From a virus, in IMG/VR virus record IMGVR_UViG_3300008107_000892, positions 1 to 37,022 of that record: a stretch of DNA of 37,022 nt; one strand, 5' to 3'. The translations under genes were made by a program, and so were the position numbers. Of the stretch, positions 1,516 to 30,939 are shown in pieces. Position 1 is the stretch's first letter. Every line of letters begins with the position of its first letter. A model generated the notes under the pieces. That model was not told where the DNA came from and ran no database searches. It worked only from the letters and a program-made list of their open reading frames with translations.

Positions 1516-4365
1516 TTATGGTGCTATTGGATAATTGATTAATGAATTTGGAGCAGTTGTACCTCCTAACCTAGGAGACATTGCTTGAGATTTTGCTTCA
1601 GTGATAGTTCTATTTGGCTCACCTAAAGTAATAACGTTGCCCCCACCTTTAGATTTTTGTTTAGTTTCTGATTGAATCTTCAAATTTTCCCTTTGAACTC
1701 GCTGTAAATTTTGAGAGTTTCCAGAAGTTGATGGTGTTACGTTAGGGGTTGGTTTGGGTGAAGCTACAGGGGCAGAATTAGTTGCAGGACCACTTAACAT
1801 CTGAAATAGTTTACCAAGATTCTCTGCTACAGATGCTGCCATTTCAGCGGTAAATGTTTCTGCAGTTTCTGCTGAGTCTGCTGGAGAATCAGTACTAGTT
1901 TTAGAGGATGTTTGACCACTTACAGATGGAATAGCTTTGCCAGAAGACCAACTGATTGGATCTATTTTTCCTCCTATAGTTCCATTCCAAGAACTACCAA
2001 TTTCCCAATGTAAGTGTGGCCCAGTACTTCTTCCTCCTCCATGCTGGTGACCACTTAGTGCAACTTGTTCACCTGCTTTAATTTGATCTCCTGATCTCTT
2101 GGAGTAATCGCTTACATGTCCAAACAAAGAGTAAACTCCATTAGAACTTTTTAGCACCATAAAGTTCCCCCATCCACCTGGATTCTTTCCAGTTTCTTTA
2201 ACAACACCATCAAAAGGCGCAAGCAATGGAGTTCCTACTGGCATCGGAATGTCGGTTCCACCATGCTTTGAACTCATTCTTCTACCTAATACCACACCAG
2301 AAGAATCTTCAGGAACAGGTGCCCATCCGCCGCCAAGCTTTAAAAACTTTTTAGTTGAAACATTTGGACCACCACTACCAAATCTTGGATACATTCCATA
2401 ATTAATTGCATCCAAAACTTTTGGTCCGCCCATTCCTTGGACTGCATTTTTATTCAATACATATTCATTTGGTTCTAACAATGCAGGAATCTTATCTCCA
2501 GTACCTTGACCAGGGATACTACCTTCTGTTTGGGATGGATATGTAAATATAGAACTTACTTTAGGAGCTGATGCTGGGGCTGGGGTGGCTCCTGCTGGGG
2601 CTGGGGTGGCTCCTGCTGGGGCTGAAGGCGTTGATGGTGCTTTGGCGGGTGCTGGGGTGGCTGAGGGTGTTGAAGGGGTTGCTGGTGTGGTTTCAGGTGC
2701 CACATCAGGTTTTGATTGCTTGCTGATCAGAGCACCGAGAATATTTCCAAGCAATCCTTTTACTGAAGTGTCATTGCTTGGAGAAAACTCTTCTCCTTTT
2801 TGCTGTTGTATATTGACTTCATTCTTTCCAAATAAAGTAGAAATATCACCAAGTCCAGTAGATACTGCAGAGGTAACTCCACTTACAAAATTAGTCATTC
2901 CTGTAACTAATCCTGCAGGTAAACCAAAACTACTTGCAATCCCAGATATTAAAGGAAGAATAAATTGACCTATACCTGGAATTTTCCCAACAGTAGATGA
3001 GATGAGTGCTACTATACCTGCACCAACAATACTAAATGGTAAAGTCAATAGCTTCATGAATTTAGGAATCATCTTATTAGTAGACGCTTTAAAGCCATCA
3101 ATACCAAATGATCCTAATTTATCCAGTGGTAAAATAGCTTCTGGCCCTGCTTCACCAACAATTGCTTCAGTTGGTTTAGTTACGATTCCACCTTTAGCTA
3201 GCATTGGAACACCTTGTTCCTTTGCAATATCTCTTCCAATTAGAGCCGCATCAATTCCAAGTGATGCGGCAGTTCCCCATCCAGGAAGTAGTCCTGCAAC
3301 TCCTGAAAGTACCTCACCACCGGCACCCAACCAATCTCCTTTAGATGCTCTGTCTGCAGCAAAAAATGCACTCGATACCGCACCAATAACAGGAAGTGCT
3401 TTTAGTAGTGACTTACCAGTGACCTTAGCACCTCCTTTTGCTGCCGCTGCACCCGCTCCTTTGGCGGCTGTTCCTGCAGCCTTTCCGGCAGTGCTGGCTG
3501 CCTTTGCACCAGTTCCAGCAGCTTCTGCTCCAGTTGCAGCCCCTTTTGCAGTAGCTGTCGCACCTTCTGTGATCTGTTTGCCAGCTTGAGATAACGCTTC
3601 ATCTGCAGCCTCTCCAGCTGCCTTAGGTATTAGATTAGTAAAGAAATTAATTACTCCATTTATTGCATTTGGTATTACCTTCGTGAAAAGGTTTCCAATC
3701 ATTTTAATATCTGAAATAATTTTAGTCGGATTTAATAACCATTTTAAAGTAAAAAATCCAACCGCAGCTTCAAGGAAACCAAATACCCTAGTTACTCCTT
3801 CTCCACCAATTAGTTTAGACAATCCACTAAACAGTTTATCAATTCCAAACCCAACTATGGCGTTTAAAAATTTAAATATATTCCCAAAAAGATTAACAAA
3901 GTCTTGAATTTTTTGTACATTCTCTGGATTACTTGCCCATTGAAGAACTTTGTATGCAATAAATGTTTTGATCAATCCTTGGAAAAAATTTCCTATTCCT
4001 TCAAGAGTTTTTTTACCTTGCTTAACAAGTGGATTTTTTTCTTCTTTTTTAGTCTTGTCTGATTGTTTTTCTTGAAGACTTTCTTCATCTTTGAATTGTC
4101 TTTTTTCTTCAGACAAAACAAATGCTTTAATAGAATCTGTTAGAATTTCAAAATGTCTTTTTTCAAGAGAAACTAAAGTTTCTAATGCTCGTTTAATATA
4201 ACTTAATTCTTTTATTTCTTTATTTGCTATTGTCTTTTCAGAAGCTTCACTTCTTGAAAGTGTTTTTTTCCCGCCAAAAACAGCACCACCAAATTTAGTT
4301 GGATCAATAAGGGGAGATGTTTTTATGGATGGATTCTTTTTAAAACTAAAAAGTGAAGCTGCCAT
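1516..4365 (-). CDS. Tape-measure-like tail protein with M23 peptidase domain
   Basis: The 949-residue protein has a charged N-terminal helix region (about 1-130), hydrophobic segments (about 150-230), a low-complexity Ala/Gly/Lys stretch (about 240-320), GEAGPEAILPL near residue 405, a Pro/Ala/Thr-rich linker (about 555-610) and an M23-type metallopeptidase domain at roughly 695-800. The zinc motifs are visible as HGGTD and HLHWE. M23 enzymes cut peptidoglycan cross-links, so the domain probably opens the host wall during DNA ejection. The GEAGPEA motif, the length and the position right behind a gp26/frameshift cassette all point to a tape-measure protein. T4 uses gp29 for that job and no gp29 homologue is evident here. 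The exact product name is inference. Confidence 0.75.
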   Translation of the reverse strand: MAASLFSFKKNPSIKTSPLIDPTKFGGAVFGGKKTLSRSEASEKTIANKEIKELSYIKRALETLVSLEKRHFEILTDSIKAFVLSEEKRQFKDEESLQEKQSDKTKKEEKNPLVKQGKKTLEGIGNFFQGLIKTFIAYKVLQWASNPENVQKIQDFVNLFGNIFKFLNAIVGFGIDKLFSGLSKLIGGEGVTRVFGFLEAAVGFFTLKWLLNPTKIISDIKMIGNLFTKVIPNAINGVINFFTNLIPKAAGEAADEALSQAGKQITEGATATAKGAATGAEAAGTGAKAASTAGKAAGTAAKGAGAAAAKGGAKVTGKSLLKALPVIGAVSSAFFAADRASKGDWLGAGGEVLSGVAGLLPGWGTAASLGIDAALIGRDIAKEQGVPMLAKGGIVTKPTEAIVGEAGPEAILPLDKLGSFGIDGFKASTNKMIPKFMKLLTLPFSIVGAGIVALISSTVGKIPGIGQFILPLISGIASSFGLPAGLVTGMTNFVSGVTSAVSTGLGDISTLFGKNEVNIQQQKGEEFSPSNDTSVKGLLGNILGALISKQSKPDVAPETTPATPSTPSATPAPAKAPSTPSAPAGATPAPAGATPAPASAPKVSSIFTYPSQTEGSIPGQGTGDKIPALLEPNEYVLNKNAVQGMGGPKVLDAINYGMYPRFGSGGPNVSTKKFLKLGGGWAPVPEDSSGVVLGRRMSSKHGGTDIPMPVGTPLLAPFDGVVKETGKNPGGWGNFMVLKSSNGVYSLFGHVSDYSKRSGDQIKAGEQVALSGHQHGGGRSTGPHLHWEIGSSWNGTIGGKIDPISWSSGKAIPSVSGQTSSKTSTDSPADSAETAETFTAEMAASVAENLGKLFQMLSGPATNSAPVASPKPTPNVTPSTSGNSQNLQRVQRENLKIQSETKQKSKGGGNVITLGEPNRTITEAKSQAMSPRLGGTTAPNSLINYPIAP

Positions 4366-4369
4366 TTAT

Positions 4370-5262
4370 CTACAACGATGTTGTTGTTCGGTTTCTATTA
4401 TTTTCCTCTTCAATGTAATCAACTAGCATCTGAACATAAATTTCTCGTTCCCATGGCAGCATAGATTCAATTTCGGAAAGAGACCATTTATGATGCTGAA
4501 GTAATATAAAATTAACCCTGAAATAATTTTCTAGCGATTCATGCGCTAGTGCTATGCGAAAAAAGATGCAAGTCCCTCTAGAACCACATCACTTTCTACA
4601 TTGGTTACTGGGTTAGTAACTTTGATAGTATGTGATAGTTTTGGCATAGTCTCAAAGAACTTTTGAATCAACAGAAACTGTGCGGTATCTAAGCTATCAA
4701 GGAAATCATTAATTTCTTTTTTAGAGAAACTCTTTGTTTCATATACATCTTCACCTTCTACAACTTGCTCAATACAAGATGCTGCAATTTCAAATATATC
4801 TTCAGTCTTTGCACTAGCTGTGAAGTTTGTTTTAACAAACATTTCCATGCTAGGATATTTCATCACCACAGAAATACTATCAGTTAAAGGAATAATCCTA
4901 GAGTGTTTATCAGATTTTTGAATCTTAATCTCTTCAACATTAAGCTCTATTGGAACTGTAGTTTCCCCATCATCAGGACAAGTAAGGTTGAGTTCTATCT
5001 GTTCACCAACAGACTTAGCACGAATATTGAGGAATAGATATTCGATATCGAATATAGCTAAGTCATCAACTTTAACTTTGGAAATAATACAATTTTTTAG
5101 AATTGTTTTCACTGCATTGATCATCTGAGATTCATCTTCAGATTCCATTGCCATCAAAAGAACCTTCTCTTCTCTCACTAGAAATGGTCTATACTTGATT
5201 AGCTGATCTGTAGATGGTAAACGCAATTCATACGTTGGGGTGGTAATTTTAGGTAAAGGCAT
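4370..5262 (-). CDS. Predicted -1 frameshift fusion of gp26 (about 297 residues)
   Basis: After residue 235 of the gp26 frame a -1 slip on TTTTTTC (plus strand 4558-4564) enters a frame that stays open for 62 codons, to TAG at 4370-4372, 4 nt before the ATG of the tape-measure-like gene. The extension has no plausible start of its own and would otherwise be an unexplained gap. It reads as a compact helical protein segment (contains HHKWSLSEIESMLPWERE). This is the same design as lambda gpG/gpGT, where the frameshifted protein is a tape-measure chaperone. The frameshift itself is inferred from the sequence, not shown. Confidence 0.7.
4531..4564 (-). promoter_or_regulatory. Programmed -1 ribosomal frameshift signal
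   Basis: Reading the minus strand, the slippery heptamer TTTTTTC (4564-4558) is phased as T TTT TTC in the gp26 frame. After an 8-nt spacer comes a perfect 6-bp stem, CTAGCG (4549-4544) with CGCTAG (4536-4531), and a 7-nt loop. Heptamer, phase, spacer length and stem all fit the standard -1 frameshift arrangement, and the zero-frame stop sits in the spacer. Confidence 0.75.
4552..5262 (-). CDS. 26: gp26-like baseplate hub / tail assembly protein
   Basis: The 236-residue protein resembles the T4 gp26 family (Pfam T4 baseplate protein): a conserved N-terminus with LPSTDQLIKYRPFLVREEK, a CPDDGE patch, and an acidic C-terminal half ending LASFFA. T4 gp26 is annotated as a baseplate hub subunit. 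Its position one gene before a tape-measure-like protein matches that of tail-assembly chaperones such as lambda gpG. The zero-frame stop (TAG, 4552-4554) follows directly after a slippery T TTT TTC heptamer, so this frame probably also initiates a longer frameshifted product. It is spaced 35 nt from the upstream tube-like gene. Family assignment is fairly secure; the chaperone role is inferred from context. Confidence 0.8.
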   Translation of the reverse strand: MPLPKITTPTYELRLPSTDQLIKYRPFLVREEKVLLMAMESEDESQMINAVKTILKNCIISKVKVDDLAIFDIEYLFLNIRAKSVGEQIELNLTCPDDGETTVPIELNVEEIKIQKSDKHSRIIPLTDSISVVMKYPSMEMFVKTNFTASAKTEDIFEIAASCIEQVVEGEDVYETKSFSKKEINDFLDSLDTAQFLLIQKFFETMPKLSHTIKVTNPVTNVESDVVLEGLASFFA

Positions 5263-5297: not shown

Positions 5298-6131
5298 TTA
5301 GTTAGTTATCTGTAACCAGTTTGATGATTCTTGGGTACTTCCACTTGCAGTTTGAGATGAAGGTACTGCAAGTTCATACTCAAATGTTACTTGAACTTTA
5401 ACCAACTGAGAGGATCCACTAGACAAAGGAATAGAAGAAATAGTAGTTGGAAAACAATTCCTCAACCTAACTGAATAGGTATAAAAAGGTTTTCCAAATC
5501 CAGGTAAAAGTGGTCCATTGTAATCTGGTATAATGTCAGTATTTTTATAAAAGTTACGTTGCGACTCAATATTAGTAACTCGTGGTCTAGTATTTTTCCT
5601 ACTACTTCTATGTCTTTCTAGTTTAGCAACAATAATATCTGCTACATAATCATCACGATATCTAGTTCTTCCGAGATCTGTTTTAGTAGTAAAATTTAAA
5701 TTAGTATTTGATACAACTCCTCCTGCTAATGCAACGCTACCGTAAATATAATTACCCCATGCATCAAATATTCTTCTGATCTGAGCATCTGCATCTAAAA
5801 TAAACGATATTGTAATCTCATTATTCACAATACCATATGCATATTTCATTGTAGGAGTATTAGTTATTCTATAATCTCCAGTTGAAATTGAGTATCCAGG
5901 AATAGAACATTCTTCTGCATATAATCTTAGTAGTCCTTCCATGAAAGACTCATTAGTAGTATTCACATTATTTGTCATCCCAAGATTAAAGATATTTTTT
6001 AATAACTGAGAATTTTTAGATTCATTACTCAAATGAAACTGAATATCATAAAAGTTGCTCAGAGAAAATCCATACTTCTGAACATAACCTTTAAACTCAT
6101 TGAAGTTGGTAGGTGTAGTATTGATGCTCAT
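5298..6131 (-). CDS. Tail-tube-like protein, possible gp54-type tube initiator
   Basis: The 277-residue protein has an N-terminus with YGFSLSNFYDIQFHL and a central ISFILDADAQIRRIFDAWG segment, typical of the beta-barrel fold shared by tail tube proteins (T4 gp19, gp54). A C-terminal beta-rich part (VKVQVTFEYELAV) also fits. It lies in the baseplate block between gp26 and gp4, and gp48 is close by. In T4, gp54 and gp48 together form the tube-initiation platform, so a gp54 role is plausible. Its ATG overlaps the upstream stop by ATGA (6131/6128). I cannot exclude another tube-fold baseplate protein. Confidence 0.5.
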   Translation of the reverse strand: MSINTTPTNFNEFKGYVQKYGFSLSNFYDIQFHLSNESKNSQLLKNIFNLGMTNNVNTTNESFMEGLLRLYAEECSIPGYSISTGDYRITNTPTMKYAYGIVNNEITISFILDADAQIRRIFDAWGNYIYGSVALAGGVVSNTNLNFTTKTDLGRTRYRDDYVADIIVAKLERHRSSRKNTRPRVTNIESQRNFYKNTDIIPDYNGPLLPGFGKPFYTYSVRLRNCFPTTISSIPLSSGSSQLVKVQVTFEYELAVPSSQTASGSTQESSNWLQITN

Positions 6132-22445: not shown

Positions 22446-23324
22446 TCAGAACTTGAAGCCCAGACCAGTGGTGAACACAGGACTATAAGCGGCATCAGAA
22501 CCACCATAGGCATTACCAGCATTCGTGGTGGGGAACTTCAGATCAGCAAAACCAACTAGTGAATTGGTAATACGACCTTCCACACCAAGGGCAAGTACAA
22601 CTTGACCCTTCTCACCAACAGCAGACTGATAGTTAGCCTGAGTATCGTTAGCAAAGGGAACCTGATAACCAACACCTGCATATAGGTTAGCAGCACTTAC
22701 GCCAGCCTTGCGAGCAAGAGACCAGTCATAAGAAACTAGAGCACCACCAGCAGTACCGATGTTGTTGTTAGGACCAGCAACTGCATTTAGATAGGGACGT
22801 ACTGATACCGCATTCTGGTTACTAAAGTTCTTCACAGCATAACGTGCCTGAAGAGTACCACCAGAGATAGTGCGATTGGCAGTGTACCCACCACCATCAA
22901 CACCTTGCTTGTTCAGCAGTACACCTAGACCAACATAGTTACCTACACCTTGAGCCTTTTGTGCAGCAGCAACTTCTAGTGCAGTTACACGAGCATTAGT
23001 TGCACCTAGTTCTTTTGCAAACTCTGCACGTAGAGCAGCTGCTAGTTGTGCATCAGCTGCGGTTTCAAATTCACTAATGCGATCAAGACATGCATTAGTT
23101 AGTGCTGCAAGTTGAGCACGAGTGGCAGGTTCACCAGGACGGAAAGTACCATCAGGAAAACCAGCAACACAACCATAACGTGAAACTAGGTTAGCGATAG
23201 CCTGATAAGACCATTCAGTTGGTTGAACGTCACGTAGTTGGGTAACACTAGTGACTTGTGCCATCGCAGGAGCTACAGTAGAAGCAGCAACTACACCAGC
23301 AGTTAGAAATGAACGAATCATCAT
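22446..23324 (-). CDS. SLH-domain porin, cyanobacterial outer-membrane type
   Basis: The 292-residue protein has a signal peptide (MMIRSFLTAGVVAASTVAPAMA, cleaved near 22), an SLH domain (LRDVQPTEWSYQAIANLVSR...GFPDGTFRPGEPATRAQLAAL, about 30-80), a coiled coil (about 85-125) and a beta-strand region ending GLGFKF, a C-terminal aromatic typical of outer-membrane barrels. This is the order of cyanobacterial Som-type porins, but host proteins are much longer (about 500 residues), so the barrel is short. It probably inserts in the host outer membrane. Base composition is richer in GC than its neighbours, consistent with host origin. It has both a sigma70-type and a late promoter. Confidence 0.8.
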   Translation of the reverse strand: MMIRSFLTAGVVAASTVAPAMAQVTSVTQLRDVQPTEWSYQAIANLVSRYGCVAGFPDGTFRPGEPATRAQLAALTNACLDRISEFETAADAQLAAALRAEFAKELGATNARVTALEVAAAQKAQGVGNYVGLGVLLNKQGVDGGGYTANRTISGGTLQARYAVKNFSNQNAVSVRPYLNAVAGPNNNIGTAGGALVSYDWSLARKAGVSAANLYAGVGYQVPFANDTQANYQSAVGEKGQVVLALGVEGRITNSLVGFADLKFPTTNAGNAYGGSDAAYSPVFTTGLGFKF

Positions 23325-29643: not shown

Positions 29644-30939
29644 TCAGCCTTCTAGAATCTCAGAGATCCATGCATCTGACATGTTAGCCATGATAGATTG
29701 AGCATCTTCTGGAGTATCGGCATAGCCTTCATCTAGGAGATGAGCAAGAACTACATCATAAAGATCTTCTCTTTCTTCTGAATAATAGTTTTCAACAATC
29801 TGATTTACTTCATGATCGCTAAATGAATCGAGAACTTCAACTGCCTGGTCAAAGGTTTCAGCATAACCTTCGTTAATTAGATATTCAAGAATATAATCAA
29901 AATTCTCACCGAGTCTATCAGCAAGTTTTCTATTCCATGCTGCGGATGCAAACTGATAATTTCCTTTGGTAAATGGTTTACCTTTTTTAGTAAGTTTAGC
30001 TGGAGGAAGTGCTTTTACAGATGAAGAAGATGTAGTACCACTTTTGTTCCCAACACCTGCATTCCTATAAGGAGCAGGAGATCTTGGACCTTTTGGTGCT
30101 GGAGATGGACCTTGTTGGGGTTTGAATGTTCTGTTTACATTCTGTCCACCAGGTCTCCAAGTTGGTTTTGATGATGATGATGATGCTGGTTTTGGACCCT
30201 GCTGAGGTTTGAATGTTCTGTTTACATTCTGTCCACCAGGTCTCCATGTTGGTTTTGATGATGATGCTGATGATGATGGTTTTGATTCAAACTCAGAAGT
30301 ATCCGCACGTCTTGCAGCAGAAGCTTGGGCTCTTGCTGCTCTTCTCATTTGACGACCAGTTTCTCTTGCCTTTGCTTCCTTTGCTGCTTGTCCACTAAAT
30401 TCTTTCTTGGCAGCACTATACCCAGCTTTTGCGGATTTTTTAACATTACTCAAAAATCCTTTAACTTTCTCCTTGGCAGATGATAGTTTGCGTCCAACTT
30501 CAGCAGCGCCTCCCATAGCAGCAGAAGCAGCACCAGCACCTAAAGTCTTTGCTCTATCTGCAATATTACGACCAGCACGAACTGCAGCAACTTGCATTCT
30601 TTTTATTGCATGTTTTCTGCCAACTCTTTCACGCTCAGCAGACTTTTCTCTCTTTGCGGTTGCCGCTGCGGATTTTCTCTCACGAGTTGCTTTGTTTTGC
30701 AGTCTATTCATTCTTTCCATTTCACTTTCTTCGGAAAGAATCTGAGAGTCAAGTAATTGCACACACTCGTTAAGTTTGAACTCACCTTCAGAAAAAATGG
30801 CTTCCATAATTATGGTAAGCTCATTATCGGAAAGATCATCAACAAATGATAAATCTTCTTCAACTGCGAAAATATCTTCTCTTAGTTCGTCGTCATATAC
30901 GGCGAAGTAAGACTCATAAAGTTTTTGGGTACTTGTCAT
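29644..30939 (-). CDS. Large repeat-bearing basic protein, probable virion-internal
   Basis: The 431-residue protein is acidic at both ends and very basic in the middle. Residues about 1-70 and 345-431 are helical and acidic (LREDIFAVEEDLSFVDDL; DYILEYLINEGYAETFDQAVEVL, repeated as DVVLAHLLDEGYADTPEDAQSI). The middle is Lys/Arg/Ala-rich (about 75-215) and then carries two copies of a Ser-rich WRPGGQNVNRTF unit. This is the charge plan of a DNA-binding head protein. A late box lies 32 nt upstream of the ATG. No family is certain. Confidence 0.6.
   Translation of the reverse strand: MTSTQKLYESYFAVYDDELREDIFAVEEDLSFVDDLSDNELTIIMEAIFSEGEFKLNECVQLLDSQILSEESEMERMNRLQNKATRERKSAAATAKREKSAERERVGRKHAIKRMQVAAVRAGRNIADRAKTLGAGAASAAMGGAAEVGRKLSSAKEKVKGFLSNVKKSAKAGYSAAKKEFSGQAAKEAKARETGRQMRRAARAQASAARRADTSEFESKPSSSASSSKPTWRPGGQNVNRTFKPQQGPKPASSSSSKPTWRPGGQNVNRTFKPQQGPSPAPKGPRSPAPYRNAGVGNKSGTTSSSSVKALPPAKLTKKGKPFTKGNYQFASAAWNRKLADRLGENFDYILEYLINEGYAETFDQAVEVLDSFSDHEVNQIVENYYSEEREDLYDVVLAHLLDEGYADTPEDAQSIMANMSDAWISEILEG
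30105..30292 (-). repeat. 87-bp tandem coding repeat, two copies
   Basis: The unit encoding Ser-rich KPTWRPGGQNVNRTFKPQQG occurs twice with an 87-bp period (for example GGTCTCCA at 30152 and 30239 on the plus strand). Runs of TGA triplets on the plus strand (Ser codons TCA on the gene strand) flank each copy. Confidence 0.85.

Follow-up and report, generated by a model that had tools for sequence, protein, structure and literature searches.

The virus record IMGVR_UViG_3300008107_000892 of IMG/VR (37,022 nucleotides, analyzed at full length and referred to here as the window) carries on its minus strand, at positions 4370-5262, a homolog of phage T4 gp26 whose 3' end runs into a -1 reading frame encoding a gp51-like peptide. 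The phage is related to T4-like viruses of marine microbes. The two segments are very probably one chaperone gene with two products, a short and a long tail assembly chaperone (TAC-N and TAC-NC), generated by -1 ribosomal frameshifting, the route by which long-tailed phages commonly produce such tail-building proteins. This reading is directly supported by the conservation of the slippery site and of the -1 frame, by homology at the protein level, by the order of the genes and by the two-gene alternative present in T4 and PG7. The minus-strand sequence of gp26 ends in GCA TCT TTT TTC GCA TAG, and the slippery heptamer T TTT TTC is followed by an 8-nt spacer, GCATAGCA (4557-4550), which contains the zero-frame TAG. 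Open from 4588, but not before, to 4373, the -1 frame ends at its own TAG (4372-4370), which leaves 4 nt before the ATG of a downstream tape-measure-like gene at 4365; the gp26-gp51 fusion is 297 residues long. From 4588 onwards, no ATG, GTG or TTG occurs in the -1 frame ahead of an ATG at 4462 and, since that ATG lies well within the conserved domain of the -1 peptide, this phage has no usable gp51 start codon. An earlier note on this DNA, made from the sequence alone, had described the heptamer, the spacer with its stop and the 62-codon -1 frame, together with a downstream hairpin; this arrangement is confirmed on the minus strand, with the exception of the hairpin as a conserved signal.

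Taken on its own, the single sequence proves little, since TTTTTTC is common in the window (23 sites, 17 on the plus and 6 on the minus strand) and the stem scores no better than shuffled sequences. What makes the heptamer non-random is its conservation, and this evidence is decisive. It was assessed in 79 related IMG/VR contigs, represented by 23 sequences with less than 85% amino acid identity in gp26. NNT TTT TTC was found at the end of gp26 in every contig (79/79) and every representative (23/23). Among the representatives, the codon preceding the Phe pair varies (AGT, TCT, GCT, AAT) and always ends in T, while the pair itself is always spelled TTT and then TTC. The in-frame motif occurs at 23 of 5,414 positions in these 23 gp26 genes, every one of them at this site. 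Their Phe codons comprise 185 TTT versus 110 TTC, the slippery site included, and both spellings occur in most of the other conserved Phe columns. Based on codon choice alone, and taking sites as independent, the probability of this pattern is ~10^-20, an exaggerated value, since the sequences share ancestry; the contrast with the other Phe columns stands despite this relatedness. The gp51 segment was present in the -1 frame of every relative that could be read there, and in 34 of the 79 contigs, including the clade of this phage, that frame has no early ATG, GTG or TTG, so that frameshifting is the only ordinary route to its translation in these contigs. The alignment of relatives proposed in the earlier note thus upholds the heptamer and the -1 frame, but not the stem.

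The same junction was also read in 20 cultured T4-like phages, which span several families. In all 20 the -1 frame encodes a gp51-like peptide, and 14 present the canonical T TTT TTC, which is kept in Kyanoviridae, Schizotequatrovirus, Ceceduovirus, Nanhuvirus, Menderavirus and Pseudomonas phage Milchi. It is also retained in Pelagibacter phage Mosig, where the zero frame reaches its stop only 9 codons further on. Variant heptamers were identified in three further phages (T TTT TTT in Melnitz and phiM7, T TTT TTG in AF3), and the other three, all of them Ackermannviridae, have none of T TTT TTC, T TTT TTT or T TTT TTG. No standard early start was found in the -1 frame of AS-yj (Aeromonas), LPCS28 (Cronobacter), Milchi or Melnitz.

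Some features of individual cultured phages stand apart from this pattern. The gp51-like -1 open reading frame (ORF) is unannotated in the records of AS-yj, LPCS28, S-WAM1, S-BM3 and GEC_vB_GOT. In the Ackermannviridae, the end of gp26 (..GAR ATT TTC ATT TAA TTTTTG..) is accompanied by a conserved gp51-like ORF in the -1 frame that presents no ATG until about +35, and an ATT start or a different shift are candidates for its expression. GEC_vB_GOT and IME250 are identical over the first 15 nt from the stop, and in BUCT-ZZ01 a late sigma factor gene follows gp26 and the -1 ORF, at the place where the tape-measure-like gene otherwise stands.

Protein homology assigns both segments to known T4-like families. 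The gp26 ORF matches PF12322 (T4_baseplate; E 4e-73) in Pfam and phrog_150 ("baseplate hub"; E 2e-80) in PHROG, and the -1 peptide matches phrog_634, the "baseplate hub assembly catalyst" gp51 (E 6e-26), as well as phrog_150 at its C-terminal end; homologs were found in 591 phage records. The gene order is tail tube, gp26/gp51, tape-measure-like gene (Table 1). The tube assignment is based on matches to PF23849 (E 1.7e-13) and phrog_45 "tail tube" (E 3e-31). The 949-residue downstream protein has an M23 peptidase domain (PF01551, E 9.5e-22) and hydrophobic segments. Several PHROGs labeled "tail length tape measure protein" are matched by two stretches of this protein, near GEAGPEAILPL and GDKIPALLEPNEYVLNKNAV, the best E value for such fragment matches being 4e-6. 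A conserved site joining gp26 to gp51, flanked by tube and tape-measure-like genes, makes a chaperone of the lambda G/GT type by far the best reading of the locus, in agreement with the G/GT cassette proposed in the earlier note. AlphaFold2 yields a confident model of gp26 (mean predicted local distance difference test score, pLDDT, 87.7), which matches predicted structures of gp26-like proteins from many other phages, and an all-helical model of the C-domain (mean pLDDT 85.0). A sequence search of solved structures gave no match for gp26 or for T4 gp51, and Foldseek searches against the PDB returned nothing significant for the gp26 N-domain or the C-domain. DUF6760 was considered as a relative of the C-domain and was not used, its matches being all sub-threshold (best E 0.0094, 7 of 28 members).

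T4 and PG7 present a different arrangement of the same domains. T4 gp26 matches PF12322 alone, over its length, whereas T4 gp51 matches PF12322 over the full length of the family and then continues into the gp51 C-domain, so that homology to both PF12322 and phrog_634 is common to T4 gp51 and the locus described here. These matches indicate that T4 has a short gene (gp26) and a paralogous, fused long gene (gp51, short form plus C-domain), and PG7 likewise carries two paralogous genes of this kind. In T4, unlike the locus in the window, the two genes are separate, lie on opposite strands and lack a slippery site. The Phe-Phe codons of gene 26 are TTC TTT in T4 and TTC TTC in PG7, preceded by a codon ending in G or A, and with this spelling gene 26 is no longer slippery in either phage. 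Among the phages read at the junction, the slippery spelling is present where one gene must serve both forms and absent from the two T-even phages with two genes, with the exception of the Ackermannviridae, which present neither.

Table 1. Coordinates of the gp26/gp51 frameshift locus and flanking genes in the window (position 1 is the first nucleotide of the window).
Feature	Positions	Strand	Basis
gp26 zero-frame ORF, 236 aa, short chaperone form (TAC-N, "G")	4552..5262	-	PF12322, phrog_150
Slippery heptamer T TTT TTC (X XXY YYZ), in gp26 phase	4558..4564	-	Codon reading and conservation
Zero-frame stop TAG, one codon past the heptamer	4552..4554	-	Sequence
-1 frame extension, 62 codons plus stop, gp51 / TAC-C domain	4370..4558	-	phrog_634, C-terminal end of phrog_150
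GAGGG, Shine-Dalgarno-like, 9 nt upstream of the heptamer; possible stimulator	4574..4578	-	Core in 23/23 representatives
6-bp stem with 7-nt loop; present, not conserved, probably incidental	4531..4549	-	Shuffles, relatives
Tape-measure-like protein, 949 aa, M23 peptidase domain, downstream	1516..4365	-	PF01551, tape-measure PHROGs
Tail tube protein, upstream	5298..6131	-	PF23849, phrog_45

Elsewhere in the window, two minus-strand ORFs of 431 (29644-30939) and 292 (22446-23324) residues had no PHROG match at an E value of 0.001.

Several observations weigh against the frameshift reading. No conserved stimulatory structure was identified: the stem breaks in relatives and the Shine-Dalgarno-like stretch is lost in distant groups. 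The 949-residue downstream protein has no convincing similarity to T4 gp29. The gp26 model bears a weak, non-significant resemblance to the HK97 chaperone 2OB9 (E 3.8, probability 0.28, template modeling score normalized to the target 0.37), a similarity that is suggestive at most. Finally, 39 of the 79 contigs have an ATG no more than ~14 nt from the gp26 stop.

The first of these points concerns two candidate elements. The stem described in the earlier note exists, with arms CTAGCG and CGCTAG (4549-4544 and 4536-4531) around a CATGAAT loop, but is not conserved. It falls within the range of shuffled sequences (z -0.64), all 6 pairs are kept in only 2 of the 23 representatives and, while 75% of the cells are paired across relatives, no pair has changed on both sides. 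With breaks in relatives and no compensatory change, the hairpin was rejected as a conserved signal; that it persists in part may be due to its overlap with conserved codons (L A H E S L E). Upstream of the heptamer, a GAGG or AAGG core occurs in all 23 representatives, as part of a GAGGG/GAAGG stretch at 8-10 nt that also encodes a conserved Glu-Gly, confounding its conservation. This stretch, which is missing in several distant groups of the cultured survey, may by analogy act like the internal Shine-Dalgarno stimulators of other genes.

The ATG near the gp26 stop is open to two interpretations. In the relatives that bear it, both routes could operate, with frameshifting yielding the fusion and re-initiation releasing a free gp51, for a total of three products. 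Such a dual route is compatible with frameshifting as proposed here and has some plausibility, without being favored: heptamer and ATG occur together in the same 39 contigs, but no obvious Shine-Dalgarno sequence precedes the ATG on inspection by eye, its position encodes Met or Leu in the fusion anyway, and it is absent from the phage in the window, to which the scenario does not apply. More tentatively still, many cyanophages might make TAC-N, a frameshifted TAC-NC and a separately initiated TAC-C, the shift in the host requiring no conserved downstream structure beyond the heptamer and the adjacent stop, and might in this way represent an intermediate towards the two-gene solution of T4; we regard this as an unlikely scenario. 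The alternative interpretation is that gp51 is simply a separate small gene with its own start, coupled to gp26 termination, and that the heptamer is incidental. The gp51 segment is annotated as its own coding sequence in the records of P-SSM2, S-PM2 and KVP40, and Vibrio phages YC and D532 present TAATG. A separate start codon had been named in the earlier note as evidence that would refute frameshifting; an ATG just after the zero-frame stop is indeed found in about half of the relatives, where the slippery site is nonetheless kept, and not in this phage. A standard start is lacking here and in 33 other contigs, as well as in AS-yj, LPCS28, Milchi and Melnitz; even in such start-less contigs and phages, the conserved -1 coding extends all the way to the heptamer; the heptamer is invariant with or without the ATG; and T4 gp51 is the fused form occurring as a natural gene. 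A stand-alone gp51 gene is, on this evidence, highly improbable. Slippage by the polymerase rather than the ribosome on the T run within the heptamer is least credible of all, given that six T are short for transcriptional slippage, that the related contigs never depart from or exceed this length, and that the codon phase of the run is fixed as NNT TTT TTC.

We infer from these data that slippage takes place, that it involves a minority of ribosomes and that both products serve as chaperones. According to the proposed mechanism, most ribosomes would terminate at the TAG following T TTT TTC and release the 236-residue gp26 (TAC-N), while a minority would slip by -1 on the heptamer, with tRNA-Phe in the P and A sites pairing anew with TTT TTT, and synthesize the 297-residue gp26-gp51 product (TAC-NC). 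By analogy with lambda gpG and gpGT, both forms would coat the tape-measure protein encoded by the gene that follows, and the rare long form would use its C-domain to recruit tail-tube subunits.

The lambda heptamer is G GGA AAG, and the E/E+E' products of the contractile phage P2 depend on a T-rich heptamer, located upstream of the tape measure gene, at which ribosomes shift by -1. The locus in the window resembles lambda gpG/gpGT in the N-terminus common to the short and long forms, and differs from it in the heptamer, in belonging to a contractile-tailed phage and in its N-domain of ~236 residues. With P2 it has in common the contractile tail, the T-rich -1 heptamer and the downstream tape measure. 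Family searches reported no relation to lambda G/T or P2 E/E+E', although no direct comparison was made. The order of tube, chaperone and tape measure is also that of lambda V-G/GT-H (PMC5009743), and the same 2016 paper, which covers the lambda G/GT mechanism, described frameshifting at G-T as a widespread, conserved feature with T4 as the exception.

Both the mechanism and the re-annotation have already been published for T4-like phages, and this locus is thus a further instance. The abstract of a 2022 study by Vladimirov and colleagues reportedly names T4 genes 26 and 51 and describes frameshifting as conserved in several T4-like groups. A literature search by gene name found no direct report of a gp26/gp51 frameshift, and that study surfaced through a reference list. 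It deals with T4-like phages and their tail assembly chaperones (Vladimirov, Gautam & Davidson 2022, Virology 566:9-15, as cited in PMC10885494 and PMC12846349); the citing papers attribute to it the presence, in some T4-like phages, of one short gene copy plus a long, fused one (PMC10885494) and of poly-T slip sequences in T4-like TAC-N genes (PMC12846349). The TAC-N/TAC-NC genes of that study are reportedly the same as those discussed here, the difference being that the present locus comes from an uncultured, Kyanoviridae-like contig. The re-annotation of gp26 from hub subunit to chaperone, offered as novel in the earlier note, was therefore anticipated, as far as the citing papers convey, by Vladimirov et al. 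2022, and T4 gp26 and gp51 had been listed as hub assembly chaperones in 2010 (PMC3004832). The same source notes that T4 gp51 is required yet absent from the particle, and that the presence of gp26 in the hub is disputed. Further details of the present analysis are the start-codon distribution, the non-conserved stem and the replacement of slippery by non-slippery codons in T4 and PG7, which the 2022 paper may already contain.

For this uncultured T4-like lineage, the analysis indicates that gp26 and gp51 belong together as a single frameshifted tail chaperone, a relationship that public records still obscure by listing gp51 as a separate gene or missing it altogether. The distribution of slippery single genes in cyanophages and other groups, versus split paralogs in T4 and PG7, presents recoding and gene duplication as alternative solutions, and the spelling of the Phe-Phe pair provides a simple codon-level test for whether frameshifting is in use.
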